A stretch of DNA of 45,508 nt from Clostridiales bacterium (GCA_018335855.1 JAGXRM010000020.1:1-45508), one strand, 5' to 3'; numbered from the stretch's first letter, positions 1 to 17,305 are shown. Numbers and translations: made by a program. The notes: generated by a model from the sequence alone, not told the origin.

Positions 1-706
1 AACGTGTGCTCAGATTCCCCTTGCCGTCGCGCACACTCAGATCCACTTTGTGTGACCTGCTCGGTAAAACAGCATCATAGTATACGGTTCCCGTCACAGG
101 GTCAACGCTGTGTGCCACTTTGCTGCTGTTGAGTTTCAGGTCCACTGTTGTCCAGTCCACCGTATCATTGTCCGTTACTGTTGCGGATACACGGTTCACA
201 CTTACCTGCTGGCTGTTGTGGGCCGGGCTGATGTCTGTAATTTTCGGCGCCTCGGCCACCGTAAAGGACCAGGATTCAGCAAACGTGTTTCCCGCTGAGT
301 CACGGATGGATACTTCCACGTCGTTTGCACCGTCTTTTAGTACCCCTGCGTTCACTGTAATTGTTCCTTCTTTGTAGCTGTCAATAACATAGAATGTGTC
401 TCCGTCATAATCCGTCTCCCAACGCCCGAGAAATTCGAAAGTGGCTCCCATGTCAGTACCGTTTAGCCTGGCTTTCACTGAGCCCTGAGAAAGGTTATGT
501 TCACTGCTTTTTACATAAACAGAAACCGCAGGGTTTGAGACATTAACCGTTTTGCTTTTGCCCGGTGTATGGCTGGAAAATGTAGCTGTGCCGGCAAGTG
601 CGACTAAATAAGTCGCAAGGAGCAATAATGATATCAGAAAAGGAACAAGCCCCGCCCGTACCGCTTTTGTCAGCGAAGAATACTCATTTTTCACCTTTAC
701 TCTCAT
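1..706 (-). CDS. Secreted or anchored Ig-like surface protein (partial, N-terminal 235 residues)
   Basis: The frame is open from ATG at 706 to the window edge, so the C-terminus is missing. The start is supported by AGGAGGG about 8 bases upstream. A charged N-terminus (MRVKVKNEYSS) is followed by a hydrophobic stretch at about residues 18-40, read as a signal-anchor or signal peptide. The rest is rich in Thr, Ser, Val and Asp and shows two beta-sandwich-like units, at about 50-160 and 165-235. The second opens with APKITDISPAHNSQQVSVN, typical of bacterial Ig-like (Big) repeats. No haem motif is visible in this part. It is the last visible gene downstream of the cytochrome cluster but is separated from it by two hairpins, so it is probably its own transcript. 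A cell-wall structural or adhesive role is an inference; the missing C-terminus could carry sorting or S-layer domains. Confidence 0.7.
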   Translation of the reverse strand, partial: MRVKVKNEYSSLTKAVRAGLVPFLISLLLLATYLVALAGTATFSSHTPGKSKTVNVSNPAVSVYVKSSEHNLSQGSVKARLNGTDMGATFEFLGRWETDYDGDTFYVIDSYKEGTITVNAGVLKDGANDVEVSIRDSAGNTFAESWSFTVAEAPKITDISPAHNSQQVSVNRVSATVTDNDTVDWTTVDLKLNSSKVAHSVDPVTGTVYYDAVLPSRSHKVDLSVRDGKGNLSTR

Positions 707-1595: not shown

Positions 1596-3296
1596 TCATT
1601 CTACACTGAAGCCGAAACTGTGACCCTGATGGTCATCTACTTCCACGGCCCTGTGGCTGATTATCGCCCGTATACCGGCAGTCAGCCGGACAATATATTC
1701 CCTGCCGGCCTGCAGCCAGCCCGCGGGAACGGCGAGGTGCACCGAGCGGGTTTCGGCCGAGTAAACAGGCGTGCCCGAAACCTCATTTCCGTAAACACTG
1801 TCGGTCACCGTCATGGTTGTGGCTAGCACCGAAGGCTCATAAAGCCCGATATTAAAGTAGACCGCCACCATATCCAGCTCTTCCCCAACGATTCCGTTAT
1901 CGTCAGGCATACTGCCGGTTACGGCCGGTTCGTAAAGGAACTCTCCGTGACAGAGATAACAGGCTTCAAAACGCCCCCCAAACCCGTCGTCGTTTTCCGG
2001 ATCGAAATAGCGCAAATGTACAGTATTTTCGGGTGCGGCCCCGGTGTAAAGGGATAAGTCCCTTAAGCCACCGTCAATGGACCAGCTCCAGTCCCGGCGC
2101 TGCATCATTTCCGTATCGGTGCCGTGGGCAAAATGACAGGTAAGACAGGTCAGCCGGTATTCGCCACTGCCGTCGACCTCCAGCCGCATCGCCGACTTCG
2201 CGCTTTCCTCGTAAAGAATCTTGCCGCGAATATCCGTCCCGATGGCATGATAAAACCGCTTATGCGCGGTGTAGCGCCCACTCTCCGTCTCTTCACCGTA
2301 TTGTATATGGCAGGACAGGCAAAATTCCACGGTATTTTTTTGATAAATCACAAATTCATCCTGTTCTAGCGGGTTCACCACCGAAACCTCTATCTGTTTC
2401 ACCCGGTAAAAAGAGACACTCACAGGCTCCACCGGTTCATCCGGGTCCAGCTTTTTTACGCTGCCCTCGGCATGATTCACCGCAAAAAGGTTTGTCACAT
2501 CCTCAGGCTGCCCGTTGACGATGCCGTTTACAACCACCCCATATGCCGTGTCTTCGGAGTAATACCACGGCGTTAGCGTCTTATCCTCTATCGCATACTT
2601 GCCCGGCTCCCCGGGCACAGCCACAAGATCCGCCGTCAGCCGTTCCTGCTGAGCTACCCAGCCGTTTGGGTCATAATGCAGGTGACGGCCGCTATAAGAG
2701 CCGTGCGGTGCATGGCACGAGCCGCAGGTAAAAGACTGCAGCCAGGGGCTGTCGGGCTGATCCAAACGGAGCGCATCCGCTTCTTCCGCCGTAATACCGC
2801 TCCCCGGCGCCTGCCAGTGCTCCAGCCTGCCTGTAGCCTCATGGTATGAAACCCCTTCCCGCCCGCTGACAATAAAATCATCGTCGAAAAAACGCCCGCC
2901 GCCGGCAGCGCCGCCGCCGGGCATCAGGCCTTCCAGTACGTTGTAGGCATTCATGGTATTGTCAAAATGGCATGTCGTACATGTGTTGTAAATAGAGCGC
3001 TGGAAAAGAAGTTTTCCTGCGGGTGACACGTGGGTCAGGTGGCAGGAAGCGCAGGAGTTGCTGTTTAAGGTAAACTCCCGGTGGACGCTCTGCCCCTGCA
3101 CGCTGCGCAGATAACCGTCAAAACGGCCGGTATCATAAATCCCGGTCCTGTTCGCGTTGATAAAGCCTTCCGCTTCCAGATCCACACGTGCCGGTTTCTC
3201 CCAAATCCCGCCAGCCAGCACAAAGCCCACATTCAATACAAAAGCAAAACCCAGCACCAACCCCGCCAGCTTACGGAAACCGTCCGGTCTGCCCAT
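1596..3296 (-). CDS. Secreted six-haem c-type cytochrome (566 aa)
   Basis: ATG at 3296 is chosen because AGGAGG lies 8 bases before it; a GTG three codons upstream overlaps that site. A signal or anchor sequence covers about residues 8-30. Six CXXCH motifs are visible: CASCH, CTTCH, CGSCH, CLSCH, CLTCH and CYLCH. They are spread over a long chain, with sheet-like inserts and a C-terminal stretch of about 100 residues that has no haem. It is a paralogue of the 690-residue cytochrome at 6228-4156: both have an LN-N-SCASCH-TH block, then a TC--CH block with KLLF between them, then a CGSCH/CASCH block followed by PHGSYS. The spacing suggests haem pairs and an extracellular electron carrier, possibly a terminal reductase. 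The electron acceptor cannot be told from sequence. Confidence 0.85.
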   Translation of the reverse strand: MGRPDGFRKLAGLVLGFAFVLNVGFVLAGGIWEKPARVDLEAEGFINANRTGIYDTGRFDGYLRSVQGQSVHREFTLNSNSCASCHLTHVSPAGKLLFQRSIYNTCTTCHFDNTMNAYNVLEGLMPGGGAAGGGRFFDDDFIVSGREGVSYHEATGRLEHWQAPGSGITAEEADALRLDQPDSPWLQSFTCGSCHAPHGSYSGRHLHYDPNGWVAQQERLTADLVAVPGEPGKYAIEDKTLTPWYYSEDTAYGVVVNGIVNGQPEDVTNLFAVNHAEGSVKKLDPDEPVEPVSVSFYRVKQIEVSVVNPLEQDEFVIYQKNTVEFCLSCHIQYGEETESGRYTAHKRFYHAIGTDIRGKILYEESAKSAMRLEVDGSGEYRLTCLTCHFAHGTDTEMMQRRDWSWSIDGGLRDLSLYTGAAPENTVHLRYFDPENDDGFGGRFEACYLCHGEFLYEPAVTGSMPDDNGIVGEELDMVAVYFNIGLYEPSVLATTMTVTDSVYGNEVSGTPVYSAETRSVHLAVPAGWLQAGREYIVRLTAGIRAIISHRAVEVDDHQGHSFGFSVE

Positions 3297-3325
3297 CTCC
3301 CGCACCTCCTTTCATCCATGCTCAA

Positions 3326-3349
3326 GTACGGCGGAAATTCCCGCCGTAC
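3326..3349. other. 9-bp GC-rich hairpin between lipoprotein and cytochrome genes
   Basis: GTACGGCGG pairs perfectly with CCGCCGTAC across AAATTC. It lies between the lipoprotein stop (3375) and the ribosome site of the 6-haem cytochrome. On the minus strand it has no T-run, so it looks more like an mRNA processing or stabilising hairpin than a terminator. Confidence 0.5.
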
Positions 3350-3374
3350 GTATTTTCTATATCACACTGTCACA

Positions 3375-3896
3375 TTACTGGTTGCTTACCAGTAACCCGC
3401 GTTCATTCACGGAGATTTTCCACTGGCCGTCTTCCTTGCGGAAGGCCATACTTTCCTGTATTTTTGCCCGGCTGGCTTCCGTGCCGCCTTTCTTCATAAC
3501 CACATCGTAGGCGGCGATAATAAACGCCGTTTCCACAAAGTTGGTGTCTTCGTTATTCACATACTTTACTATGGTGTAATTGAGATTCTCCGCCGCAAAC
3601 TCGTCAAAACGGTTTTTCGCCTCCGCATTAAAGAGAAAGGAATTATCGCTCCAGGAATTACGGTGGTCTTTGGTCAGCATTTCCAGCACCGTATTGCGGT
3701 CGTCTTTCACCAGGGCACTGACAAATGTCTCCACATTTCTGTAAATCTGGCCGTCATTTTCATTGGGCTTTACCGTCTCAATCTGCCGCCGCTGCGAATT
3801 AGCGCCGTTCTCTGCCGCCTGTTTCGTGCAGCCGGCTCCAACCGCCAGCAGTGCCAGAACCAAACCGAAAACAAGAATCCGTCTTATTGTTTTCAC
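3375..3896 (-). CDS. Lipoprotein with an NTF2-like fold pattern (173 aa)
   Basis: GTG at 3896 is preferred: GGAGGG lies 7 bases upstream and the protein then begins directly with a lipoprotein signal (VKTIRRILVFGLVLALLAVGAGC, split here as charged start, hydrophobic core and lipobox AVGAGC). Cys23 is the lipidation site. The mature domain starts with a helix containing FVSALVKDDRNTVLEMLTKD and ends with FRKEDGQWKISVNERGL. That end is typical of NTF2/SnoaL-like lipoproteins in Gram-positive bacteria, which often act as envelope sensors or chaperones. No catalytic residues can be named. It is followed by the 6-haem cytochrome in the same direction, 78 bp away, so an accessory role is plausible but unproven. 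Confidence 0.75.
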   Translation of the reverse strand: MKTIRRILVFGLVLALLAVGAGCTKQAAENGANSQRRQIETVKPNENDGQIYRNVETFVSALVKDDRNTVLEMLTKDHRNSWSDNSFLFNAEAKNRFDEFAAENLNYTIVKYVNNEDTNFVETAFIIAAYDVVMKKGGTEASRAKIQESMAFRKEDGQWKISVNERGLLVSNQ

Positions 3897-4108
3897 CCTG
3901 TTGCCCTCCCGTTTGTCTTCAATATATACCATATACTTCGCGTTATGTGACAAAATTCCTGCCTGCCAGGGAACAGCTTCGTGCTTTTCTGCACAAGCGC
4001 TGTCAGTTTTATTATACTATAACCAATACTTACCGGCAATAATTATTAGTATTATTTATACCTGATTATTCCACAATCCATAATCCATGCCGGTAGTGTT
4101 CAACTGTT

Positions 4109-4146
4109 TTTTGGAAAAAAGAAGGCGTCCGGAGACGCCTTCTTTT
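4109..4146 (-). terminator. Strong terminator after the 690-aa cytochrome
   Basis: GAAGGCGTC pairs with GACGCCTTC around a CGGA loop (4121-4142), and the stem is extended by A/T pairs on both sides. It lies 10 bp beyond the stop at 4156. The flanking A and T runs would let it work in both directions. Between it and the lipoprotein start (3896) about 210 bp hold no gene. Confidence 0.8.
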
Positions 4147-4155
4147 GTGTTAGTT

Positions 4156-6228
4156 TTACCAGCTGCCGCGACCGTCAGCTTCGTAGCCGTCCCAGTACCA
4201 CTTGGTGTTCTTCAGCGTTGCAGCGGAAGAGTTGGCGTGGCAGGACCAGCAGACCGCCATGTTGATGTAGCGCTTCAGGGCGGAGCTGTGGTTCACGTCG
4301 TTGGCGCCTTCGAATGCAGCGACATCGTCAACAATTGCAGCGTCGGCCAATTGCTGGAAGGAGCTGTCTGTGCCGTGAACATAGTGGCAGGATACGCAGA
4401 GCAGTGAATTGCCGGTACCCTTAACTTGCATGGTACCGCCGACGGTGGCACCACGGTTGATGGTGTGGCGGTGCGCCTTGGAGTAGATACCGCTGCCGTC
4501 AGCAGGGTTCGCACTGGCAGAACCGAGCAGGTAGTCGGTATGGCAGGCTGCGCAGTAGAGGTTGTAGGCATACCGGTTCTGGTCGGTAATAGTAGAGCCA
4601 GTGATGTTTCTGCCGCTGGCGGTAGCATATTTACCGGTATAAGTGTCGGTCTTGATGTAGTTGGCACTGTACTGCGGTAGCGCAGGGGTTTCGGGATTCG
4701 GGAGAGCAGCGAGTTCTTCGGCGGTGCGGCCGGTGGCCTGGACATAAACCACGCCGCCCACGTCAATGCGCAGTTTGGACGCATCAAAGGTGCCAAGCGG
4801 AATCTTGGTAAAGGCGGTAGGCCAGTCAGTATAATCAACGCCGTCCGCATCTTTACCGGCGAGGAAGTTTTCGAGTACAGCCTGCTCTTCAACAGAGAGT
4901 GCTGCATAACCTTTGCCGTACTTCATGGAGAAGAAGCGGTTCAGCAAACCGGCGCCGTGGACTGCAGCCATGGGGCCGCCGACGGAGTTGGGGTTGTAGA
5001 ACCCTTCATACCAGATACGGGAGGCGAAGCGAGGCTGACGACGGCCGTCCCAGGTGGTGGCGCCGCCTGCATAGCTGTAGAGCCAGGGGGATTCGTTTTC
5101 GGGAATATAGGTGGTTAGCTTTCTGTTCGTTGTGGTTGCGGGTGCACCTGATCCTAATGTTACGGCTTCATCCATCTGGGCCCTGGTCAGGGTGACGGTG
5201 CCGTTTGTGAAGCTTTCATACGTATTTACAATGTTGGGCGTTGTACCTGTTCTCGCCGGGACCATGGAGTAGTTGCCGGTTTTAACTATAGTTAGGTCGG
5301 CAAGAGTTACATCACGGCGGATATTGTAGAATTCGTATTCGGCCTTAAATTTGCCGGCATCCAGTTTCAGCTTCTGGCCTTCAAACCACAGGCCGCCGGT
5401 GTTGGCGATGGTGGCGCCGATGGGAGAAGCGGTACGCATGCTGATGCCAGCCGGGTTGTAGTGCAGGAGACGGATGCTGTAGGAACCGTGCGGTCCGTGA
5501 CAGGAAGCGCAGTTGAAGTCGGCGCCCCAGGGGTTGGTGCTTGCTGTAAAGCCGCCGGACTCAACCACGTTGGCGCGGTTACCGCCGGGGGCGGCAGCCA
5601 GCTTCATGGTGTCGCTCGCCAGGTGCACGGAAGCGTTCCGGGCTTTATTGGCGGCAAAGGTACCGGCTGTCTGAGAACCACCGAAGGGGTTGGTGCCGCC
5701 TGGGATGGCGAATACGTTCAGGAAGCCCAGTGTGCCGTCGTGGCAGGCTGCGCAGGTGCTGTAAACGCCGTTTCTGAACAGCAATTTACGGGACTGCGCG
5801 GTGTGGGTCATGTGGCAAGAAGCGCAGGAGTTGGTGTTCAGCTGGAAGTCGGTGTGGACCAGTTGCCCAAAGACGTTCCGCTGGAAGGTGCTGTGGAATG
5901 CAGGCTCATAAACAGCATCTGCAACGTTGCTGCTCTTGAAGTAGGGAACGTTCAGTTCGCCGGTATAGTTGGCGTTGAAGATAAGCCAGGAGCCGTTGGT
6001 CCAGCGGGGGTCAGTTCCGCTTTTGAAGTGGGGGTCCAGGAAGTACACACTTCCGGCGACATAAGAGTGTGTATTGCCAAGGCTGTCTGTGTAAGAGGTG
6101 GTCAATTGTGCCTCATAGCTAGCGCTGGTCGAATGGGGCTGATAGTCCCCGGGGGCCGCCATGGCAAAGCCGGCGAACACCAGCATTGCGACTATGGCAA
6201 TAACCGCAATCAAGGTAAACTTTCTCAT
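4156..6228 (-). CDS. Secreted six-haem c-type cytochrome (690 aa)
   Basis: ATG at 6228 follows AAAGGAGGAAGATTT and gives a textbook signal peptide (MRKFTLIAVIAIVAMLVFAG, cut near AMA-APG). Six CXXCH motifs occur: CASCH and CAACH near residues 130-165, CASCH with PHGSYS near 235, then after a haem-free stretch of over 250 residues CAACH, CVSCH and CWSCH near the C-terminus. It has an in-frame upstream start with its own ribosome site (ATG 6279), discussed separately. It is paralogous to the 566-residue cytochrome at 3296-1596, sharing the first three haem blocks. The long haem-free centre could be a substrate-binding or cell-wall-spanning domain. As the most distal gene of module two it is a candidate for the outermost electron carrier. 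Confidence 0.88.
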   Translation of the reverse strand: MRKFTLIAVIAIVAMLVFAGFAMAAPGDYQPHSTSASYEAQLTTSYTDSLGNTHSYVAGSVYFLDPHFKSGTDPRWTNGSWLIFNANYTGELNVPYFKSSNVADAVYEPAFHSTFQRNVFGQLVHTDFQLNTNSCASCHMTHTAQSRKLLFRNGVYSTCAACHDGTLGFLNVFAIPGGTNPFGGSQTAGTFAANKARNASVHLASDTMKLAAAPGGNRANVVESGGFTASTNPWGADFNCASCHGPHGSYSIRLLHYNPAGISMRTASPIGATIANTGGLWFEGQKLKLDAGKFKAEYEFYNIRRDVTLADLTIVKTGNYSMVPARTGTTPNIVNTYESFTNGTVTLTRAQMDEAVTLGSGAPATTTNRKLTTYIPENESPWLYSYAGGATTWDGRRQPRFASRIWYEGFYNPNSVGGPMAAVHGAGLLNRFFSMKYGKGYAALSVEEQAVLENFLAGKDADGVDYTDWPTAFTKIPLGTFDASKLRIDVGGVVYVQATGRTAEELAALPNPETPALPQYSANYIKTDTYTGKYATASGRNITGSTITDQNRYAYNLYCAACHTDYLLGSASANPADGSGIYSKAHRHTINRGATVGGTMQVKGTGNSLLCVSCHYVHGTDSSFQQLADAAIVDDVAAFEGANDVNHSSALKRYINMAVCWSCHANSSAATLKNTKWYWDGYEADGRGSW

Positions 6229-6295
6229 AAATCTTCCTCCTTTAATGGGGGTTGTCTTTTTGATCTCGCATGTACGCATACGCATACACCTCCTT
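6226..6295 (-). promoter_or_regulatory. Two in-frame starts, each with a strong ribosome-binding site
   Basis: Upstream of the chosen start at 6228 lies a second AAAGGAGG with ATG at 6279 (9-base spacing) and ATG at 6285 (3-base spacing), in the same frame and with no stop between. The upstream start would add a hydrophilic stretch (MRTCEIKKTTPIKGGRF) before the signal peptide. The downstream start is preferred because it gives a normal signal peptide. Confidence 0.55.
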
Positions 6296-6322
6296 TCTTG
6301 CGCTATTTACGGAGATATAGCA

Positions 6323-6351
6323 GCGGAATATCCGCGTTGCTACCGTGTCAA
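6323..6351 (-). promoter_or_regulatory. Possible promoter with overlapping dyad before the 690-aa cytochrome
   Basis: A perfect TTGACA (6351-6346, minus strand) is followed 15 bases later by TATTCC as a weak -10. The palindrome GCGGA-TAT-TCCGC (6335-6323) overlaps the -10 and could be an operator. The short spacer makes this a tentative call. Confidence 0.3.
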
Positions 6352-6402
6352 ATAACATGTTTTTTCTCTGTTTCCGGTGTTCCTTATTCAAAGTGCCTGC
6401 AG

Positions 6403-7410
6403 TTAGCGGGCGATACGGTAGACCGCCACGCGGTTAAGGGTGGTGTCGGTGATAAGAATACGCCCGGCGGGGTCCACATGCAGGCCGTTGGGGAACATAA
6501 ACTCAGTGTTGCCGTCACCCTGGCCGCCGAACTGGTGGGTAACCTGACCTTCACGGTTAAAGACGTAGATGGTGTGGGAAAGGTTGCTGACGACGTAAAC
6601 GTTGCCGGCGCGATCCACGCCAATGCCACGGGGGTTAATGAGGACTGAGGACATTCCGTGACCGGTGGGTGTGCCGTTAATCAACCGGACCGGGTTGCCG
6701 TCGGGGTTGTAGACCACCACACGCTGGCGGCCGGTATCCACCACGTACATATAACCGGCTTCGTCTACGGCAATGCCGTTGGGCGCCAGAAGGTCGCCCT
6801 TCATACCCACCAATTTCGTAATTTTCTCTGTCTCAAGATTAAAGATCATTATATAGTTTTTAGTAATTTCCGTCAGGTAAAGAGTATTGCCCTCGATAGC
6901 GATGTCCCCGGGGGAGGCAATCTGTTGGGCCAGGCGCGCTTCCTGCGCGAATTCGCGCAGGAACTCGCCGTCGGCGTCAAAGACATAGACGCGGCCCAGG
7001 CGGAGTTCCGAAACGTAGATGTTGCCGTCACGGTCAGCGGCGATGCCGTAGGGGTATTGCATCTGGCCTGCATCTCTGCCGCGTTCGCCGAATGCAAACA
7101 GGAAATTCCCGGCATTGTCAAAAACCTGGATACGGGCGTTGTCGGAGTCGGAAACGTAAATGCGGCCGTTGGCGGTGGTGACTGCCAGAGGTTTGTTGAG
7201 CTGCATCTCACCGAAGCCGCCGTAAATCATAAAATCAAAGGTTGGAACTCCGGCGCGGCCGGGGATAATGGCGGCTGTCTGGGCCAACGGGCGCCGGGAA
7301 GTGAAAAGGTAGCCGTATAGTCCAAAGAGAATCATAAACGAGATGATAAATAAAAGACGGGTTGTTTTCTGACTAACCGGTTTATTTAACACACCTGTGA
7401 CTGCTTGCAT
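6403..7410 (-). CDS. Membrane-anchored NHL-repeat beta-propeller protein (335 aa)
   Basis: An N-terminal membrane segment at about residues 18-37 (LLFIISFMILFGLYGYLF) is followed by six NHL-type units of about 42-46 residues. Each has the pattern P-G-A-D--GN-YV-D-----V-VF: for example IYVSDSDNARIQVFDNAGNF, then YPYGIAADRDGNIYVSELRL, and later FPNGLHVDPAGRILITDT. The fold should be a six-bladed propeller outside the membrane; such propellers usually act as binding scaffolds, and none of the known enzyme NHL active sites was recognised. ATG at 7410 lacks a clear ribosome site, and GTG six codons on is an alternative. It lies between a TPR protein and a 6-haem cytochrome on the same strand, which suggests a role in arranging the cytochromes at the cell surface. 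Confidence 0.85.
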   Translation of the reverse strand: MQAVTGVLNKPVSQKTTRLLFIISFMILFGLYGYLFTSRRPLAQTAAIIPGRAGVPTFDFMIYGGFGEMQLNKPLAVTTANGRIYVSDSDNARIQVFDNAGNFLFAFGERGRDAGQMQYPYGIAADRDGNIYVSELRLGRVYVFDADGEFLREFAQEARLAQQIASPGDIAIEGNTLYLTEITKNYIMIFNLETEKITKLVGMKGDLLAPNGIAVDEAGYMYVVDTGRQRVVVYNPDGNPVRLINGTPTGHGMSSVLINPRGIGVDRAGNVYVVSNLSHTIYVFNREGQVTHQFGGQGDGNTEFMFPNGLHVDPAGRILITDTTLNRVAVYRIAR

Positions 7411-7466
7411 ATATAGTTGCGGCTAATTGCCGCGCACCACCTTTCTGCTTGACTGTGAACCGGATG

Positions 7467-8120
7467 CTAATTTTTCTCCTTCACCAGACGGTTGAGCGCC
7501 GCCTGAGCTTCCATGAATTTCGGATTAAAGGAGAGTGCTTCTTCGTATTCATCAATAGCCGCATCGTATTCACCCATACGCTCCAAGGTCATTCCCGCGT
7601 AGTAAGCCACGTCGCTGGCACCGGGACGCAGAGCCTTGGCACTATAGTACATATTGAGTGCGTGTTCATACATGCCGAGATACATGTAGCAGACACCCAT
7701 GTTCTGGTAGCCGCGGTGGTCGTCAGGCGCCAGTTCGGTTACTTTCTGGAAGTTTTCCAGCGCTTCGTCCCAGAGCTCCATGGCCTGGTAGACATAGCCT
7801 CTGTTCAGGTAGGCCGGCATGTATGTCTCGTCCATTTCCAGAGCGGCACCAAGCTGTATGAGGGCGCGGTCATAATCGCCGCGGCGAAGGTAGGTGTACC
7901 CCAGGCTGACGCGGTGTTCCGGCTCCATGGGTTCGGTTTCGATAAGTTGCTGGTAGTAAGCAATTTCTTTGTCAATACGGCGCAAATCCATGTCCGTCCA
8001 GAAAAAACGTGTGCCGACAAAATTTCCGATAATACTGAAAATGGCTACAGACAGGATAAGGCTCGTGGTTACTTTCCACAACGGATATGTTTTTTGCGGT
8101 TGCACAGATGCGGTTGTCAT
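7467..8120 (-). CDS. Membrane-anchored TPR protein of cytochrome module two (217 aa)
   Basis: ATG at 8120 is preceded by AAAGGAGAGCAGC. One membrane helix lies at about residues 17-36, followed by a linker and at least four tetratricopeptide repeats from about residue 65 on (examples: VSLGYTYLRRGDYDRALIQL, YLNRGYVYQAMELWDEALEN and YYAGMTLERMGEYDAAIDEY). TPR units form a protein-binding superhelix, so it is probably an assembly or docking factor on the outer side of the membrane. It follows the 12-haem cytochrome by 26 bp and precedes the NHL gene by 56 bp. The TPR gene at 11884-11222 sits in the same place in the other module. Confidence 0.88.
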   Translation of the reverse strand: MTTASVQPQKTYPLWKVTTSLILSVAIFSIIGNFVGTRFFWTDMDLRRIDKEIAYYQQLIETEPMEPEHRVSLGYTYLRRGDYDRALIQLGAALEMDETYMPAYLNRGYVYQAMELWDEALENFQKVTELAPDDHRGYQNMGVCYMYLGMYEHALNMYYSAKALRPGASDVAYYAGMTLERMGEYDAAIDEYEEALSFNPKFMEAQAALNRLVKEKN

Positions 8121-8146
8121 GCTGCTCTCCTTTCAGGTATTACAAT

Positions 8147-9316
8147 TTAAAATCCAAACTGTCCGGGCAGGTTGCTGAAATCGTCAAGGACCGGGGCGTT
8201 GCTTCGCCCGTCGTCATAGCCCGGAAAATAGTGGCAGTTAAGGCAAGTGTTGGCCGAGTGGCACATAAAACAGGTCTGGTCAATTGTCTGGCCCGGCACT
8301 ACCCGGGGCATGTGGCCCTCGTGCCAGTCTTTGCGGTGCTTGGCTGGATGGCAGGAGCCACAGGAAACATCGGTAGTCTGAGGCAGGTCGGTTATATTGT
8401 TGTCATGGCAAACCAGGCAGCCATCTCTGTCCCGTTCACCTATCCGGATGCTGTAGCCATGCGTTTGCTTGAAAATACCGTCTCCGTGGCTTTCCGGGCG
8501 AACGCGGTGGCAGGAGATACAAAAGCGGTTACTACGGGAATAATCGACAAGCCGTGTCCGTTCGTTGACCACCATTTTCTTCGGGCCGGTCCAGCCGTGG
8601 CAGAAATTGCAGTCATCCAATAGCTCCCGAGCTTCGTTGCCGTGCCGGACCGTAAAACCGGCCGGTTCGTGATAACCAGGCAGTCGGATCTCGCCGTGGC
8701 AGGAGATACATTCGGTGGTGACTTTACGCCGGAAGTGGCATGACATACAGTCGGCCTTGTTCGTCTGGACGAGGCTGCGGGCCATTTCCTGCAGACCCAA
8801 GTCTTTGTCCCAATCGGCGAAATCGACTTTGCGGGTGATGGTACGGCGGGCTATATCCCCATGGGCAACGGCACTGTGGCAGGAGGCGCAGCGAACCCGT
8901 TTATCGGTGTGCTGTTCGTGGGGAATGATCAGGTTGCCGGGAACGGATGCCTGGCGGTTGTAACTGTGGCAGCGGAAGCAGGTGTCGTCATCCACGCCGC
9001 GGAAAAGACGGATTGGCAATACGTATGATTTTGTTATTTCGGAATATGTGCGGCGGGTCATGTCCTTTACGAAGTTATAGACGCCCTCTATCCCTTCTTC
9101 CGTGTGGCATTCGATACAGCCCACTTGGCTATGGGATGACACCTTCCAGGTGTAGTACTCAGGCTTCATAGTATGACATTTTACGCAAAACTCGGGCGAG
9201 TTTTGCGTGACATCAGCAGAGAAAGAAAAGATTGTGAGAAATGTCACCAGCAGAAGCGTAAAATAGACATATTTGATTTTATTTCCCGTGGGATGGTGCT
9301 TTTCATTTGTAGACAT
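8147..9316 (-). CDS. Twelve-haem NapC/NirT-type membrane cytochrome (389 aa), module two
   Basis: The start ATG 9316 follows AGGGGAG. A single membrane helix lies at about residues 14-34, directly followed by a NapC/NirT-like tetrahaem domain (FCVKCHTMKPEYYTWKVSSH, then GCIECHTEEG). Twelve CXXCH motifs were counted: CVKCH, CIECH, CFRCH, CASCH, CMSCH, CISCH, CNFCH, CISCH, CLVCH, CGSCH, CFMCH, CLNCH. NapC/NirT proteins take electrons from menaquinol, so the likely role is quinol oxidation with transfer into the other cytochromes. The extra eight haems make it much longer in haem content than a plain NapC. It is a clear paralogue of the 367-residue protein at 13011-11908, with the same haem count and several shared haem blocks (GCLVCHD in both). 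Confidence 0.9.
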   Translation of the reverse strand: MSTNEKHHPTGNKIKYVYFTLLLVTFLTIFSFSADVTQNSPEFCVKCHTMKPEYYTWKVSSHSQVGCIECHTEEGIEGVYNFVKDMTRRTYSEITKSYVLPIRLFRGVDDDTCFRCHSYNRQASVPGNLIIPHEQHTDKRVRCASCHSAVAHGDIARRTITRKVDFADWDKDLGLQEMARSLVQTNKADCMSCHFRRKVTTECISCHGEIRLPGYHEPAGFTVRHGNEARELLDDCNFCHGWTGPKKMVVNERTRLVDYSRSNRFCISCHRVRPESHGDGIFKQTHGYSIRIGERDRDGCLVCHDNNITDLPQTTDVSCGSCHPAKHRKDWHEGHMPRVVPGQTIDQTCFMCHSANTCLNCHYFPGYDDGRSNAPVLDDFSNLPGQFGF

Positions 9317-9726
9317 CTGTCATTCTCCCCTGCGGGCCCTATGTAACTATTTCGCCGCCGTGTCGAATATTCCTGCTGCAATTAACCAACTTTACAATAA
9401 TTTTTCACATGTGAGAACGATAGGATTAACAGTTCATTTAAGGTCTGGGATACAAATTTTTGTTAACGGCATCTATTGCTAATTATGAAGCTGGGTCCCT
9501 ACGATGTCAAGTAGTATTTTTGTCAGAAGTGTGACCGTTAGAAATATTAGAACGCCTTATTTCAGGACATTTCTCATCCTGAATATGGGTACTTAGTACT
9601 ATTCGACCAATGATAAATTACTCCTTCCTGCTTAGGAAACTTTTTCACATAATTATTACAACAAGATTACATTGGGGACAATTGACACCGAACAAATGTT
9701 GCAGTTTTATTACAGTATTTAGAATG
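9317..9726. other. A+T-rich gap of 410 bp between the two cytochrome modules
   Basis: No gene is supported. It presumably holds the end of the module-one transcript and the promoter of module two, but neither could be pinned down. Visible structures are a 10-bp palindrome TCACATGTGA (9405-9414), about 90 bp before the start at 9316 and a possible operator, and a weak hairpin TTCAGGA/TCCTGAA (9561-9567 with 9577-9583). Confidence 0.5.
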
Positions 9727-11025
9727 TTATTGTATCGTGTCATGGCAGGGCATACAAAGATCATTGCCCCGACGGAGCTTCATCTTGGTAAATTGGGTGC
9801 CGTGGGGCCCGTGGCAGGAGGTGCAGACCATGGTGCGGTCCCTGAGGATGTCCCAGTGGGGCTCTCCCACCGGATGGTTGGTAGTACGGTGCTTGAGGCC
9901 GGGGTGACACCGGTTGCACAGATCCAGCTCATAAGCATCCAGCAGGTGGGGAAAGACGGAGCCGTGAATCTGGTGGCACTGGCCGCAGCGGAGGAAGGCG
10001 TGGGCGCTGAGGAAATAGTTATCGCCGATTTTATCGTGGCAGAACAGACAGAGGTTTCCCCTGCCGTCCAAGGGGAAGCGGCTGAGGAATTTATAGTCGG
10101 AAGAGTGGTGCTCATGACAGGCCAGGCAGACCTTGCCGTCATCAAAAAGGTTATTGTGAGGCGAATCTCCCCAGCCCAGATTATGGATGTTTTCGTGGCA
10201 GAGGAAACAGAAGTCCTGCTCCCTTTCTTCAGGTAAAAGCTTGGGGCCAACAGAACTATGGGGTTCATGACAATCGGTGCAGTATCCTTCACCGTAGGGA
10301 CCATGTTTAATGGGACGACTTAATTCGCTTTTCCTGTCGTAGTGGCATGAATAACAAAGGATGGTTTGGTTCTGCGTGGTGAGACCGCGCCAGGCGGAGG
10401 CATGGGGCTGGTGGCAATCGATGCAGTGGCCCCGTTCAAAGGGCATGTGCTGCATGGGACGCCCCCATTCTTCCTCCTGCCGGTGGCAGGATTGACAAAG
10501 CATGGTCAGCGGTGTGCGCAGGAGGGCTTTTTCCGGAGCCATATGTGCTTCATGGCAGGACAGGCATTGTCTTTTTTCATAAGGCATATGGCCTACAGGG
10601 TTGTCGTAAAGGCCCATCTCATCAATGTGGCAGGAATTGCAAAGCATTCGCTCTTCCACAACCAGGGTGGATTTCTCAAAGAGTTTGTGGCGTGTGTGGC
10701 AGCTTTCGCATTGTTTTTCGCGGACAGGCTTATGTATGGAGTAGCCGGGTTTGGCTTGATACTCAAAGTGGCAGATGAGGCAGGAGTCGATGCTGGGCAG
10801 GTAGGGTTCCCCGAAATGGGTGTGGGGGTTATGGCAACGGAGGCATGTCTGGTCGGTGAAGTCGATGTCCTGATGGGCAGGGATGTCCTTCTTATCCCAG
10901 TGACAGGTTGTACAAAGGCCACGGGCGCTGGCCGGAGGCAGTTTGGGCAGAAGCCAGAACGGGATAAGAAAGGAAAGCAGTATGATGACAATGAGCATTG
11001 AAGCGAATCCGAGGTACTGCTTCAT
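9727..11025 (-). CDS. Seventeen-haem c-type cytochrome with doubled CXXCH repeats (432 aa)
   Basis: ATG at 11025 (MKQYLGFAS) is chosen because it opens a normal membrane segment (about residues 7-26) and has AAGGGGATG upstream; the frame extends further up into a palindromic element, which is unlikely to be coding. Seventeen CXXCH motifs cover almost the whole chain at about 23-residue intervals: CTTCH, CLRCH, CLICH, CESCH, CNSCH, CLSCH, CQSCH, CIDCH, CYSCH, CTDCH, CFLCH, CLACH, CLFCH, CGQCH, CNRCH, CTSCH, CMPCH. Many are followed by -PH or -RH, as in doubled-CXXCH cytochromes, where these His residues act as axial ligands. One haem per 25 residues fits an electron wire running out from the membrane. 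It is the last gene of module one. Confidence 0.9.
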   Translation of the reverse strand: MKQYLGFASMLIVIILLSFLIPFWLLPKLPPASARGLCTTCHWDKKDIPAHQDIDFTDQTCLRCHNPHTHFGEPYLPSIDSCLICHFEYQAKPGYSIHKPVREKQCESCHTRHKLFEKSTLVVEERMLCNSCHIDEMGLYDNPVGHMPYEKRQCLSCHEAHMAPEKALLRTPLTMLCQSCHRQEEEWGRPMQHMPFERGHCIDCHQPHASAWRGLTTQNQTILCYSCHYDRKSELSRPIKHGPYGEGYCTDCHEPHSSVGPKLLPEEREQDFCFLCHENIHNLGWGDSPHNNLFDDGKVCLACHEHHSSDYKFLSRFPLDGRGNLCLFCHDKIGDNYFLSAHAFLRCGQCHQIHGSVFPHLLDAYELDLCNRCHPGLKHRTTNHPVGEPHWDILRDRTMVCTSCHGPHGTQFTKMKLRRGNDLCMPCHDTIQ

Positions 11026-11047
11026 TCCACAAACATCCCCTTCCCTG

Positions 11048-11171
11048 GAGGCTGTTGAAAAAGTCACATCTGACTTTGTTGCTGGCTGCAGCTTTTCGCT
11101 TCGACGTACAGAAGTACGCCTCAGCAAAAAGCTTTGCCGCGCCGCGCATCTGTAACTTTTTGAACAGCCTC
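11048..11171. repeat. 124-bp imperfect palindrome (MITE- or REP-like element)
   Basis: The ends GAGGCTGTTG-AAAAAGT and ACTTTTT-GAACAGCCTC are inverted copies with single mismatches. Nested pairs continue inwards (AGCTTTT with AAAAGCT, then CGTAC with GTACG around AGAA at 11105-11118), so the whole element folds on itself with the centre near 11110. It lies between the TPR stop (11222) and the 17-haem cytochrome start (11025) and contains no gene. In RNA it would form a long hairpin that could shield or split the transcript. No second copy is visible in this window. Confidence 0.7.
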
Positions 11172-11221
11172 GAACGAATGTTAAAAAGCTTACTTCTGCG
11201 GCGTTTTTGGAAAAACCGTAA

Positions 11222-11884
11222 TTAACGTGTTTTTGCGAGTTGGTCGATGGCTTCCTGGTTGGTGAAATCTAGGCGGAGGATTTTTTCCCATTGGGCTCGG
11301 GCTTGTTGGGTTTCGTCCTGGGCGAGATAGGCTTTAGCCAGCATGTGGCGGGCTTTGATTTCAAAGGAACGGTCCAGGTTCCGGGCGGTGAGCAGTTTTT
11401 TGAGGACAGTTACGGCATCTTCGTATTTTTCCTGTTCGTGAAGGATGCCGCCCAGCATAAGGCTGGCGCCGAGGAAGCCGGGCTGAATGAGGATGGCGCG
11501 GCGGAGTTCTGTTTCGGCCGCCGGGTAGTCTTTGCGGCGGTTGTAGATGACGGCTAAGTTGTAGTGGGGTGCGGAGAGGCGGGCATCCAATTCAATGGTT
11601 TTTCGGTAGTGTTCGATGGCGTCGTCTTCCCGGCCCATGGCTTCATAGCTTTGGGCTTGCATATAGTGGATGGAAGCGTCATTGGGCGCTTTTTGTGAGG
11701 CGTCCTGAAAGTGGGCCAATGCTTGGTCAATGGCACCGGTGCGGTATGCACGGATGCCGTGCTGAAGCAGGCTTTGTAAAGTTGCTCTCGGAAAGAAGAG
11801 CCTGGAACCGATGTTCCAGGCGCTTCCTAAGAGCAAAACTATGATGGTTATAATAATGAGAGTTTTTGATGGCGGTTTGCCCAT
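11222..11884 (-). CDS. Membrane-anchored TPR protein of cytochrome module one (220 aa)
   Basis: ATG at 11884 is preferred over a GTG nine bases upstream because AAGGAG lies 8 bases before it. One membrane helix lies at about residues 8-25, then TPR units from about residue 40 (ALAHFQDASQKAPNDASIHY, EDDAIEHYRKTIELDARLSA and AETELRRAILIQPG are the recognisable helix pairs), ending near the C-terminus. It lies 23 bp behind the 12-haem cytochrome gene and before the 17-haem gene. The role is probably the same as for the TPR protein at 8120-7467: holding cytochromes or other partners together outside the membrane. Confidence 0.87.
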   Translation of the reverse strand: MGKPPSKTLIIITIIVLLLGSAWNIGSRLFFPRATLQSLLQHGIRAYRTGAIDQALAHFQDASQKAPNDASIHYMQAQSYEAMGREDDAIEHYRKTIELDARLSAPHYNLAVIYNRRKDYPAAETELRRAILIQPGFLGASLMLGGILHEQEKYEDAVTVLKKLLTARNLDRSFEIKARHMLAKAYLAQDETQQARAQWEKILRLDFTNQEAIDQLAKTR

Positions 11885-11907
11885 GTCAGGCACTCCTTCG
11901 CCTTAAG

Positions 11908-13011
11908 TTACTGTCCGAAACCTACGTTCTCTTTGGTGTGACAGACAAAGCATGATGTGGCGCCGTGGCAGTCGAAGCAACCAAACGATCCTTTATCTTT
12001 GACGGTGGCTTTGTGATCCCAGTACCAGCGGGGATCATCGTGACCGTCAGCATATTGTTCGTGGCAAGAGGCGCAAGAGATGACGTTGGCAGCGGGCATG
12101 GGAGCCTGCGGCACAGACCAGTCGTGGCAGACCAGGCAGCCGGTTTGATCCGCTTTGCCGGGGATTTTGTGGCCCACTGACCAGAAGGCGGTGTGGGTAA
12201 CGGGGCGCACGCCCTCGTGGCAGTCGCGGCAGAATTTAGCGTTTCTTGTGATTTCAGGAATGGATGTACCGGATACGGTCCGGTCTTTACCAAAGCCGGT
12301 ATGGCAGCGCATGCAGTCGGCAATATCTTCGCGGACATAAGGTCCGTGGCGGTAGCCGAAATCTGCAAAGTCGTGGTTTTGCGGAATCCGGATTTCCTGG
12401 TGACAGGCATTGCAGTTGTAGGTAACACGTTTGCCGTCATGGCATTCCAGGCAACCTGTTTTTCTCAGGGAAAAGTCATCATAGCTGACTGTTTTGAATT
12501 TGGCCATCATATCGTCTGTGGGCTGAAACGCCGCCATGGAAGTGAGACCGGCGTGGGCCACATCGGCGTGGCAGTCGGCACAGCTTGTGCCGTACCCCAA
12601 ATGAGGGGTATGGAAGTCGGACTGAAGATCCAGGGACGGGGTAATTCTCCGGTTTGTTGAATGACACTGCAAACAAGCTTCACTGCTAATTTCCCGTTTC
12701 CCCTGAATGGGAAGAGAAACATCTTTCGTACGGTAGGTAATCCACTCTTTGACACCGCGCATTTTAACGGTAAGAAAACCGGTGCCGGGCTCGACGTGGC
12801 ATTCGAGACAACCGACGTTGCTGTGCGGTGAGTTTTGCCAGGTGTAGTAGTAAGGCTCTATAACATGGCAATTGGCGCAAGACTCAGGGCTGGACATGTC
12901 AGAAACAGCAACCAGACCAAAAAAGAAAATAAGGGCTACTGCAAGGCCGACAATGGCAAATAATTTTTTATTGCCATGTGAATCGCCTTTCAAGAAACGA
13001 AATTTGGACAA
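11908..13011 (-). CDS. Twelve-haem NapC/NirT-type membrane cytochrome (367 aa), module one
   Basis: The start is TTG at 13011, supported by GGGAGGT 7 bases upstream; the next in-frame ATG lies inside the chain well past the membrane helix. A helix at about residues 17-37 is followed by a NapC/NirT block (SCANCHVIEPYYYTWQNSPH, then GCLECHVEPG). Twelve CXXCH motifs are present: CANCH, CLECH, CLQCH, CADCH, CLECH, CNACH, CMRCH, CRDCH, CLVCH, CASCH, CFDCH, CFVCH. It should oxidise menaquinol and feed the 17-haem cytochrome encoded two genes downstream. It heads module one and is separated from the 9-haem gene upstream by a terminator, so a promoter must lie in 13020-13240. Confidence 0.9.
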   Translation of the reverse strand: MSKFRFLKGDSHGNKKLFAIVGLAVALIFFFGLVAVSDMSSPESCANCHVIEPYYYTWQNSPHSNVGCLECHVEPGTGFLTVKMRGVKEWITYRTKDVSLPIQGKREISSEACLQCHSTNRRITPSLDLQSDFHTPHLGYGTSCADCHADVAHAGLTSMAAFQPTDDMMAKFKTVSYDDFSLRKTGCLECHDGKRVTYNCNACHQEIRIPQNHDFADFGYRHGPYVREDIADCMRCHTGFGKDRTVSGTSIPEITRNAKFCRDCHEGVRPVTHTAFWSVGHKIPGKADQTGCLVCHDWSVPQAPMPAANVISCASCHEQYADGHDDPRWYWDHKATVKDKGSFGCFDCHGATSCFVCHTKENVGFGQ

Positions 13012-13353
13012 ACTAATGACCTCCCCCGGATGTGAATAATGGCACTTTACTAAGAGAAAAAAATATGATTCCTTTTCTTACTGTGCCTTTTTACGTACCT
13101 TGTGACGTTTTACCCTAATCATATTCGCTTCTGTCAGGGAAATTCCTTCTGCTTCGTAATAAAATATTCACATTTTCGAAAAAATCCCGACATTTCTTTG
13201 ACATATTAGAAGCTATTCCGCGGTTAGACTATTAAAAAAACAGACAAAACACAAGACCCTGGCGCTCAGGCGTATTACCATACGCCAGCATGCCAGGGTC
13301 TTGTAGAAAAATGTGAAGTTTTTAAACGACCTGGGTAGGACGGCAAAGCTGCC
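13012..13353. other. Gap of 342 bp before module one: terminator plus leader
   Basis: The distal half (13236-13303) is the terminator of the 9-haem cytochrome gene. The remaining part is A+T-rich, with no open frame worth calling, and must contain the promoter and leader of the 13011 gene. No -35/-10 pair was clear enough to name. Confidence 0.5.
13236..13303 (-). terminator. Terminator of the nine-haem cytochrome gene
   Basis: CAAGACCCTGGC (13252-13263) pairs with GCCAGGGTCTTG (13292-13303), and an inner stem CGTAT/ATACG lies in the loop. On the minus strand it is followed by TGTTTTGTCTGTTTTTTTAA. It separates the 9-haem gene from module one. Confidence 0.8.
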
Positions 13354-14439
13354 CTACTCAGGGTTATAGTTATTTTTGATATCTTCCAGGGTGTCACGGA
13401 GCAATTGTAAAACAAACGGTGAATTGTGAACACCCAGGGATTTGTCGCGGTCGAATAACTTGTAATTTTCGTAAGCATTCTCCAGAATCAGATCGGGGTC
13501 GTTGTCAAAGGGCAACGTTCCGCCGCGGTGACACTGGTTGCAGGTGCCGGGCTCGTTGCCGGGCAGGCTGCCGTTATTCCTCTCTTCCAGTGCACCTTGC
13601 AGTTCAGTGAGGAGGCTTTGCGCTTCCTGCTGCCTGCCGGCGATATCATAATTGTCGGTTTCACCGTGACAGGATACACAGGCGGCGGTGTTCAATGCAC
13701 TTCCATCAGGAGCGCGCATAGAGAATGTATGACCGCCCAGATTGGGTACGCCTGGCGTTTGGTCCATATGGCAGGTAACGCAGCGGTCGCCGCTGTTGTG
13801 CGGGTGATTGGTAAGTGCTGAGTAATCATTGTAATGGTAGCCGCCGGTACCGGTCATGACTAGGTTCTGCCACTTGCCGCCGTGGCACTGGGAGCAGAGT
13901 TCACCTTTAGGTAAACGGAGCAGTTGGGACTGGGCAGACTGGTGCGGGCTGTGGCAGGCGGTGCAGGTCACAGCTTCCGGCTCGGATGTGGGCGGTGGTG
14001 CCCAGGCTTGTTTAAAGTTATCGCCGCTGTTGAGAACAGCGGCAAAGCCGCTGGCCTGATGGCATTTCATGCATTCCATGATGCGGGGGTCCTTGGGAAA
14101 CAGGTCTAAGGGAATCTGAGCATGGGGTGACATAGTCCACTGGGCATGCTGGTCTTGGTGGCAGGCAGCGCAGGTGTCGGCCCGGTAGTCCACAGAAGGT
14201 AAGTTTGAGACGTTTTTTATATGGGCGTCTATGCCGGAGTGGCAGTCGCTACAGGTTAGGCCGCTTGTTCCGTGGGCAGTTGCTTCGTATCGTGCTATTA
14301 GGTCGTTGTGGCAGGAGGCGCAGTTGGCATCGCCTTTGGCGATGTTGTTGTTGACATTTGGTGCAGGCTGATTTTGGGTGGCGCAGCCGGCTATTGGCAG
14401 TATAAGCAGGATCAGTATCGCTAAGATTGTCCTTGGCAT
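13354..14439 (-). CDS. Nine-haem c-type cytochrome lipoprotein (361 aa)
   Basis: A short signal ends in the lipobox LPIAGC, so Cys19 should be lipidated and the protein tethered to the outer membrane face. Nine CXXCH motifs follow: CASCH, CSDCH, CAACH, CMKCH, CTACH, CSQCH, CVTCH, CVSCH, CNQCH. The spacing and blocks such as HGTSGLTCSDCHSG and EAVTCTACHSPHQS resemble pentahaem/octahaem nitrite-reductase-like or cytochrome c554-like proteins. No CXXCK catalytic haem site is present, so nitrite reduction is not claimed. The last 70 residues have no haem and look helical. It is monocistronic: a CRP/FNR-like box lies upstream and a strong terminator follows. It probably shuttles electrons at the cell surface under a redox- or energy-dependent regulator. 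Confidence 0.86.
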   Translation of the reverse strand: MPRTILAILILLILPIAGCATQNQPAPNVNNNIAKGDANCASCHNDLIARYEATAHGTSGLTCSDCHSGIDAHIKNVSNLPSVDYRADTCAACHQDQHAQWTMSPHAQIPLDLFPKDPRIMECMKCHQASGFAAVLNSGDNFKQAWAPPPTSEPEAVTCTACHSPHQSAQSQLLRLPKGELCSQCHGGKWQNLVMTGTGGYHYNDYSALTNHPHNSGDRCVTCHMDQTPGVPNLGGHTFSMRAPDGSALNTAACVSCHGETDNYDIAGRQQEAQSLLTELQGALEERNNGSLPGNEPGTCNQCHRGGTLPFDNDPDLILENAYENYKLFDRDKSLGVHNSPFVLQLLRDTLEDIKNNYNPE

Positions 14440-14642: not shown

Positions 14643-15935
14643 TTAGCTGATTTGGGAGGCGGCGGCGAAGGCTTTGTCGGCGGCGGAGAGGGTTTTGTCC
14701 AGGTCGGCGATGGTGTGGGCCAGGGAGACAAAGCCTGCTTCGTATTGGGAGGGGGCGATGTAGACGCCGTTTTCCAGGAGGGTTTTGAAATATGTGCGGA
14801 AACGGGGGAGGTTGGATGTGGTGGCGGTGGGAAAGTCGTAGACGTCTTCGGCGGTGAAGTAGATGCAGCTCATGGAGCCTACCCGTTTGAAGGTGGTTTC
14901 CACGCTGTGCTTATCTGCTAGTTTCTTCAGATCCTGAGCTAGTTCGGCCGACATATTTTCCAGCTTCTCGTACACATTCCGCACTTGTAAGGCCAGGAGC
15001 ATTTCGCGGCCAGCGGCCATGGCCAGCGGGTTTCCGGAAAGGGTGCCTGCTTGGTAGATGGGACCGGCTGGCGCTATGTGCTCCATGATGTCTTTGCGGC
15101 CGCCGTAGGCACCTACGGGGAGGCCGCCGCCGATGATTTTACCCAGGGTGGTCAGGTCAGGCATGATGTTGTAGCGCTCCTGGGCGCCGCCGTAGGCGAC
15201 GCGGAAACCGGTCATGACTTCATCGAAGATTAAAAGTGCGCCGTATTTTGTGGTAACGTCGCGCAGTCCTTCCAGGAAGCCCTCTTTGGGAATAGCCAGT
15301 CCCATGTTGCCGGCAATGGGTTCCACGATGACGGCAGCGATTTCTTCGCCCATTTTCTCAAAGAGTTCTTTTACCGCTTCCAGGTCGTTGTAGTTTACTG
15401 TCAGGGTATCCTGAGCAGTTCCTTTGGTCACTCCGGGGCTGTCTGGCAGGCCTAGGGTGGTGACGCCGGAACCGGCTTTAATTAATAGGCTGTCGCCATG
15501 ACCATGGTAGCAACCGATGAATTTGACAATTTTGTCCCGACCGGTGAAGCCGCGGGCTAAGCGGAGGGCGCCCATGACTGCTTCGGTGCCGGAGTTGACC
15601 ATGCGAACCATCTCTATTGAGGGGACGGCATCGATGACCAGTTTGGCCATCTCTGTTTCTATTTCAGTTGGGGCGCCGAAGCTTGTCCCCTTCTCTGCCG
15701 CTTTCTGTATGGCAGCCACAATTTTGGGGTGGGCATGGCCGAGGATCATGGGACCCCAGGATGCCACATAGTCTATGTATTCTTTTCCGTCTACGTCAAT
15801 AATCCTGGAGCCTTTGGCTTTGGCTACAAATATGGGATCCATACCTACTGATTTAAAGGCCCGTACCGGGCTGTTGACGCCACCGGGCATCACTTCTTTG
15901 GCTTCGGCAAATAGTTTTTTTGAGCGTTCAAACAT
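14643..15935 (-). CDS. hemL: Glutamate-1-semialdehyde 2,1-aminomutase
   Basis: This PLP enzyme converts glutamate-1-semialdehyde to 5-aminolevulinate, the second step of the C5 haem pathway in the cytoplasm. The 430-residue length is normal. The N-terminal signature [15 protein letters not shown], the PLP region [16 protein letters not shown], the FDEVMTGFR block and the PLP lysine Lys266 in [19 protein letters not shown] are all present. ATG at 15935 follows AAGGAGG. It is cut off from the rest of the haem genes by the plus-strand toxin-antitoxin cassette at 16087-17260 and ends in its own terminator, so it is probably transcribed alone. The same direction and pathway suggest it was once the last gene of the big haem operon. 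Confidence 0.96.
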
Positions 15936-16031
15936 AAAATCGCCTCCTTGAACTGATTCATATGTACCAAATCTAATTTATGACACTATTCTATACCCGA
16001 CAAGTTAAGAATGCAATGAAACAGTGTTTTC

Positions 16032-16061
16032 TTGCATAAGAAGAGTAAATCATATTATAAT
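16032..16061 (+). promoter_or_regulatory. Promoter of the AbrB-like antitoxin gene (copy 1)
   Basis: TTGCAT (16032-16037), an 18-base spacer, and a perfect TATAAT (16056-16061). About 42 bp around it recur upstream of mntA. Confidence 0.6.
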
Positions 16062-16086
16062 TTATGTAAGTAATGGGGGGGATGAA

Positions 16087-16323
16087 ATGGGTACTGTAAA
16101 ACTCTCTCGTATGAGGCAGATTACAATTCCGGCTAACGTTTGCAGGCAACTATCTATGAAAGACGTTGACTATCTCCTGTTAGACGTGCACGAGGGAAAA
16201 ATCGTATTAACCCGAGCACCTGAAAACTTTGCAAAACATTTTAAGGGAATCTCCAAGGGACTGTTTGGCAAAACAGCAGAAGAAATCGATGCCTACGTTA
16301 CTGAAGAGCGCAAATCATGGTAG
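16087..16323 (+). CDS. AbrB/MazE-fold (VapB-like) antitoxin or regulator (78 aa)
   Basis: ATG at 16087 follows a G-rich ribosome site (GGGGGGGATGAA). The N-terminal 45 residues fit the swapped-hairpin AbrB/SpoVT domain (MGTVKLSRMRQITIPANVCR, then LLLDVHEGKIVLTRAP), which binds DNA as a dimer. The C-terminal tail GLFGKTAEEIDAYVTEERKSW is the kind seen in VapB antitoxins, where it wraps the PIN-domain toxin. No PIN gene follows; instead an MntA/HepT pair starts 78 bp downstream behind a second promoter. It may be an orphan antitoxin that now represses both promoters, or the third part of the cassette. That is inference. Confidence 0.8.
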   Translation: MGTVKLSRMRQITIPANVCRQLSMKDVDYLLLDVHEGKIVLTRAPENFAKHFKGISKGLFGKTAEEIDAYVTEERKSW

Positions 16324-16330
16324 TCGTTAC

Positions 16331-16360
16331 TTGCATGAGAAATGTTAAGCATAGTATAAT
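16331..16360 (+). promoter_or_regulatory. Promoter of mntA-hepT (copy 2)
   Basis: TTGCAT (16331-16336), an 18-base spacer, and TATAAT (16355-16360): the same architecture as copy 1 and nearly the same sequence from 16330 to 16374. Confidence 0.6.
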
Positions 16361-16401
16361 TATGTAAGGAATTTTTACCACAAATTGCTGAGGTGTTTTA
16401 A

Positions 16402-17260: not shown

Positions 17261-17273
17261 TAATAGTTACGGT

Positions 17274-17305
17274 AAAGGCCAGACACGGTGTCTGGCCTTT
17301 TTCTA
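17274..17305 (+). terminator. Terminator of the MntA/HepT cassette
   Basis: AAAGGCCAGACA pairs with TGTCTGGCCTTT around a CGG loop and is followed by TTCTATT. It also faces the 3' end of ahbB (17306) and may stop that transcript less efficiently, since the minus side has only three T. Confidence 0.8.

Follow-up and report, generated by a model that had tools for sequence, protein, structure and literature searches.

Our analysis reveals that genes for secreted six-haem cytochromes of the OmcS type are coupled to genes for a TPR protein and an NHL beta-propeller protein, in a cassette with the fixed order 12-haem cytochrome (a putative quinol dehydrogenase), TPR protein, NHL beta-propeller and OmcS-type hexahaem. 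This coupling is our main new result. The window, by which we mean the whole 45.5-kb stretch of DNA analysed, is the entire contig C20 of a 2.96-Mb, 99.5% complete genome, and its host is a Bacillota bacterium of the family Dethiobacteraceae. We consider it probable that the locus is a porin-free line for extracellular electron export in this monoderm host, in which the secreted OmcS-type hexahaems form a filament that crosses the cell wall. There is no settled account of how electrons pass through the thick wall of Gram-positive cells; models usually invoke flavin shuttles or single cell-wall cytochromes, and the cluster suggests how thick-walled cells that lack an outer membrane may export electrons through it. 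The genes of the cluster, in window coordinates, are as follows.

2-706, minus strand: secreted cytochrome with Ig repeats (Big_13-like), of which the contig holds the 5' part; about 1,150 aa when continued into C24 (relative at L035:300-3425; overlap with contig C24)
1108-1494, minus strand: small lipoprotein accompanying the cassette (lipobox; similar short ORFs follow the hexahaems in L023, L035, L041 and L046)
1596-3305, minus strand: second OmcS-type hexahaem, with signal peptide and C-terminal Ig-like extension (6 CXXCH; A4 profile, 544 bits)
3375-3953, minus strand: probable lipoprotein with an NTF2-like domain, between the two hexahaems (weak DUF4440/MecA_N match; counterpart at the same position in L023, L035 and L037)
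4156-6285, minus strand: first OmcS-type hexahaem, with signal peptide, candidate filament subunit (6 CXXCH; OmcS homology)
6403-7410, minus strand: NHL beta-propeller protein, anchored in the membrane at its N terminus (Pfam NHL, E 6e-23; one TM segment; conserved)
7467-8120, minus strand: TPR protein with one N-terminal membrane anchor (Pfam TPR; TM segment; conserved)
8147-9316, minus strand: membrane-anchored cytochrome of the NapC/NrfH type with 12 haems, probably the menaquinol dehydrogenase of the cassette (12 CXXCH; Pfam NNT; NrfH match)
9727-11127, minus strand: 17-haem MtrA-like wire with N-terminal membrane anchor (17 CXXCH; 6r2q chain A match)
11222-11893, minus strand: second TPR protein, with membrane anchor (Pfam TPR; TM segment)
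11908-13011, minus strand: second 12-haem NapC/NrfH-type anchored cytochrome (12 CXXCH; Pfam NNT, E 2e-13)
13354-14439, minus strand: 9-haem DmsE-like lipoprotein, probable relay on the outer membrane leaflet (9 CXXCH; lipobox)

Translation of the six cytochrome genes, all of which lie on the minus strand, yields 9, 12, 17, 12, 6 and 6 CXXCH motifs, in agreement with the 62 haem sites that a first-pass annotation of this DNA had counted and had proposed to check in this way. The plus strand of the window contains a single CXXCH, by chance. Genome-wide, there are 528 occurrences of the corresponding DNA pattern and 195 of a reversed control pattern, an excess of ~330, so the locus accounts for roughly a fifth of that excess. 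Several parts had been read correctly before: signal peptides are present on both of the "two large 6-haem secreted proteins", the "lipid-anchored 9-haem protein" has a lipobox, the "densely packed 17-haem wire" has one haem per 27 residues, and the NapC/NirT-type anchors find support in their Pfam NNT and NrfH (2j7a) matches, with quinol oxidation a prediction. The six cytochromes indeed fall within the proposed limits of 1596-14439, but the cluster itself continues past the contig end, and the OmcS type of the six-haem proteins, the MtrA-like character of the 17-haem protein and the fixed NHL and TPR genes had gone unrecognised. Family searches found no porin or molybdenum enzyme among the window genes, and translation found no CXXCK in any of the six cytochromes, so that we reject their reading as CXXCK reductases; the earlier statement that none of the three is nearby thus holds within the window. 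Among the genes checked, only one, for a radical-SAM protein (20359-21573), has a CXXCK.

OmcS is the hexahaem subunit of Geobacter nanowires. When the whole PDB was searched with a profile of the hexahaem family built from 14 relatives, OmcS (6ef8, 6nef) was the only convincing chain (E 6.6e-6; next 0.04), and profile alignment of the family with OmcS gave a probability of 99.3% over the full OmcS length. The profile was needed to detect OmcS; single-sequence phmmer with the hexahaem returned weak cytochrome c3 matches only. Since CXXCH motifs alone can inflate such scores, the shuffled controls retained the CXXCH cysteines and histidines of OmcS, the test sequence being identical to the PDB copy at 407 of 407 letters. 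OmcS scored 28.5 bits against the profile, compared with a mean of -8.9 and a maximum of 16.0 for 300 shuffles, and its hhalign score was 105 against a maximum of 41 among 60 shuffles. Six unrelated multihaem proteins from these genomes had profile scores of -0.3 to 25.

Exactly 12 histidines are invariant across the 14 hexahaem sequences, six within CXXCH motifs and six distal. Sequence alignments place ten of them on OmcS histidines, and a global profile alignment supplies the remaining pairs (His144 with OmcS His2, His607 with OmcS His257). The extended motif CXXCHXXH occurs at haems 1, 3 and 5 and never at 2, 4 or 6 in all 41 six-haem relatives, a pattern identical to that of OmcS. The histidine following haem 1, invariant in every relative, aligns with OmcS His16, which presumably ligates the haem of the neighbouring subunit. 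Such an inter-subunit haem ligand exists in OmcS (PMC7911101, PMC12307469). By alignment, then, both six-haem proteins belong to the OmcS family, with twelve predicted axial ligands that correspond, like the motif pattern, to those of Geobacter sulfurreducens OmcS (6ef8/6nef). The subunit is longer, with 709 residues against 407, and the spacings between haems differ. The first hexahaem may start at 6285 or 6228: window positions 6228-6300 contain two in-frame pairs of Shine-Dalgarno sequence and ATG, 57 bases apart, and the relatives are similar in the extra N-terminal stretch. In the second hexahaem, the C-terminal extension has a weak Big_5 match, which reaches E 5e-6 in the relative L041. 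An AlphaFold2 model of the first hexahaem from 14 sequences was unusable (pLDDT 38) and was discarded, and a search of a plasmid collection returned generic NHL proteins but no hexahaem.

The other cytochromes resemble known membrane-associated electron carriers. Both 12-haem proteins have a Pfam NNT match and an NrfH-like beginning, consisting of the N-terminal anchor and first haems, and over this first part their family profile matches the NrfH chain 2j7a (E 7.6e-11); they are probably NapC/NrfH-type proteins and putative quinol dehydrogenases. The 17-haem protein has relatives with the same number of haems in L035 and L037, and the family profile matches 6r2q chain A over 234 positions (E 1.3e-22), a chain that we take to be MtrA of the Shewanella Mtr complex, although the PDB file names the molecule otherwise. 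This homology marks the 17-haem protein as an extended serial haem wire of the MtrA-like kind, anchored by a single N-terminal membrane segment; relatives suggest that it starts at 11025. Compared with Shewanella MtrA, it has 17 haems rather than 10 and an N-terminal anchor, and neither the porin MtrB nor MtrC accompanies it. The 9-haem protein has a below-cutoff match to the DmsE family (E 3e-18) and a counterpart at the same position in L036.

The cassette is not confined to the window. The same genome has a second copy on contig C7 and variant forms on C27 and C29, and the gene order recurs in Dethiobacter MAGs, one Bacillales MAG, Neobacillus sp. DY30 and other genomes of the phylum, where 26 of 299 sampled genomes have a hexahaem-profile match. 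By script count, the exact order 12-haem, TPR, NHL stands directly upstream of 26 of the 51 OmcS-type genes, NHL and TPR genes are found upstream of 38, and an NHL gene is among the two nearest recognised upstream genes of 41. Many of the remaining OmcS-type genes come second after another hexahaem gene or are close to the end of a contig. For other multihaem genes in the same loci, an NHL gene is directly upstream of one in 34, a comparison that is biased because the loci were chosen by their hexahaem. The genome-wide count in the host is unbiased: it has five NHL proteins of this type, every one encoded at one of the four OmcS-type loci, and none of these loci lacks such a gene. A quinol dehydrogenase, an OmcS-type subunit and two fixed partners make a small, testable gene set, which marks candidate nanowire-making Bacillota in genomes. 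We regard as tentative, and on balance doubt, the further-reaching proposal of a self-contained nanowire cassette across Bacillota, Neobacillus included, with the TPR and NHL proteins as a minimal machinery for polymerising the hexahaem at the membrane in cells that lack an outer one.

Among individual loci, L047 (the complete Bacilli genome of Neobacillus sp. DY30) encodes, in order, a 10-haem anchor, a 12-haem anchor, a TPR protein, an NHL protein and an OmcS-type hexahaem, making this strain a possible culturable test organism for the cassette. At L113, from 1346 onward, an NHL/hexahaem pair is followed by an ORF of 2,461 residues with 35 CXXCH sites.

The host had earlier been called "probably Gram-positive", on which an electron route across a wall with no outer membrane was proposed. 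No Omp85 (PF01103) was found in the 99.5% complete genome, by a search that was positive in seven control genomes. Spo0A is present, which among the control genomes holds for Bacillus subtilis alone. Furthermore, the gene content of the same-family relative G005 matches DYEY01000074.1, a Dethiobacter sp. MAG, and NCBI places Dethiobacter in Bacillota, Dethiobacteria. Together, these three observations support a monoderm host, and with Omp85 absent and Spo0A present the proposed route stands as the best reading. The first-pass annotation had set against it a Gram-negative host with its own porin-cytochrome conduit; as there is no porin among the window genes and no Omp85 in the genome, we reject an Mtr/Pcc-type conduit.

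In the reading that we favour, the membrane-anchored 12-haem NrfH-type cytochromes would take electrons from menaquinol and pass them to the membrane-tethered 17-haem MtrA-like wire and the 9-haem lipoprotein on the outer face of the membrane. Secreted OmcS-type hexahaems would stack end to end, each subunit providing one axial histidine as ligand to a haem of its neighbour, and the resulting filament would traverse the wall and perhaps extend past it. The 10-haem Ig-repeat protein and the second hexahaem, which ends in an Ig-like extension, could form the surface end of the filament or its contact with the acceptor. The anchored TPR and NHL proteins may be devoted to the hexahaem, folding, holding or assembling it at the membrane. 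Both the strict coupling and an analogy with the Geobacter osc operon suggest such an assembly or tethering role. OscD of Geobacter is reportedly beta-propeller-like. The account of Shen et al. 2025 given in PMC13194489 lists proposed roles in OmcS folding for OscH, in secretion for OscE-G and in morphology for OscD. The analogy is limited to a general NHL propeller resemblance between a diderm, G. sulfurreducens, and a monoderm host, and, judged by family names, the genes of the locus include neither a prolyl isomerase nor a channel-like protein; the cassette may nevertheless offer a monoderm counterpart of the Geobacter nanowire-assembly operon.

By combining NapC/NrfH-type anchors, putatively quinol-oxidising, with secreted multihaem proteins, the locus resembles porin-free loci for extracellular electron transfer (EET) in Gram-positive bacteria, and we count it among an already known kind because similar loci have been described in Dethiobacter (PMC10376724) and Thermincola (PMC7911101). 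The EET pathway of Thermincola potens/ferriacetica runs through ImdcA, PdcA, CwcA and OcwA, and CwcA was modelled on OmcS at 18% identity (PMC7911101). Both systems are monoderm and porin-free, and in both an anchored multihaem quinol oxidiser, here a putative one, is followed after a few genes by a six-haem cytochrome, which in Thermincola is assigned to the cell wall. In the Thermincola description (PMC7911101), however, ImdcA is a 10-haem protein, the genes for PdcA and OcwA lie elsewhere and no 17-haem MtrA-like wire is mentioned, whereas here two hexahaems and the TPR and NHL genes form one unit. The N-terminal GIRD reported for Thermincola ImdcA is absent from L112 (genome G142). In Dethiobacter alkaliphilus, of the same family as the host, the EET clusters 1-Fe-T to 3-Fe-T combine MtrA-like and CymA-like cytochromes with neighbouring NHL and TPR genes, and a role in assembling complexes was proposed; the text of that paper has no occurrence of OmcS and does not describe the four-gene order (PMC10376724). 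Within the literature covered, a scope outside which the key osc paper falls, we found neither the OmcS assignment with shuffle controls nor the fixed cassette across Bacillota.

The hexahaems could instead be monomeric or short cell-wall relays, similar in function to CwcA, which carry electrons across the peptidoglycan, form no long filaments and are tethered by the TPR and NHL proteins into a membrane complex. We think this unlikely. Homology to OmcS does not prove polymerisation, as the Geobacter proteins OmcT and GSU2501 are OmcS relatives that are not known as wire formers (PMC12977616), and Thermincola CwcA was obtained in recombinant form as insoluble protein only, its filaments having been modelled but never seen (PMC7911101). 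TPR and NHL proteins are, moreover, typical protein-interaction scaffolds. Against the relay stand the invariance of all axial histidines in every relative, including the one aligned with OmcS His16, and the fact that the hexahaems are secreted, not anchored.

The direction of flow and the acceptor bear on two less probable readings. The electron source might be Fe(II), a mineral or another cell acting as partner, with flow inwards through the MtrA/MtoA-like and OmcS-type proteins to reduce menaquinone, which we consider improbable. One family comprises both MtrA and MtoA, and Dethiobacter alkaliphilus strain Z-1002 is an Fe(II) oxidiser with MtoA homologues in such clusters (PMC10376724); the 12-haem NrfH-type proteins, on the other hand, look like quinol dehydrogenases, though sequence does not fix the direction. 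It is more improbable still that the acceptor, met at the cell surface, is a soluble or sulfur compound (polysulfide, thiosulfate or tetrathionate), with filaments secondary. Dethiobacter respires sulfur compounds, and most of its cytochromes over-expressed with ferrihydrite or thiosulfate come from large clusters (PMC10376724). In two Dethiobacter MAGs (L043:6322-10668 and L044:3-4171), an OmcS-type gene directly follows an ORF resembling a molybdopterin oxidoreductase, whereas the window has neither a molybdenum enzyme nor a CXXCK reductase. These ORFs encode 850-901 residues and lie away from the usual cassette.

At its left end, which is the contig end, the window cuts the gene at 2-706, whose product is 41% identical to that of L035:300-3425, a protein with 10 CXXCH. 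The terminal 155 bases of C20 recur without a mismatch at the end of contig C24; across the join the frame stays open and comprises 1,161 codons with 10 CXXCH. The join is probable but not proven, as it rests on a 234-base terminal repeat of C24. A direct overlap between the window and C29 was considered and not found. C29 starts inside another Ig-repeat cytochrome and carries a third, each with 10 CXXCH, as well as two further NHL/OmcS-type pairs; the split reading frames suggest that it comes after C24, with no overlap between the two shown. Apparently at least three Ig-repeat cytochromes, each with 10 CXXCH, thus lie past the left end (1-706, C24 and C29), where near-identical repeats have broken the assembly.

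Beside the cytochromes, the block at 14643-31835 encodes hemL, sirohaem-decarboxylase-like pairs, two radical SAM proteins, hemB, hemC, hemD and hemA, which points to the sirohaem route of haem biosynthesis (AhbA/B-like, radical SAM). The part from hemL to the radical SAM genes also adjoins cytochromes in L036 and L037. The block includes cytochrome c maturation genes of both kinds, for system II (ResB and a CcsA-type protein) and of the system I type (CcmA, CcmB, CcmC and CcmE). Further along, SelA and SelB are encoded at 36908-40230, and some host proteins may therefore read UGA as selenocysteine.
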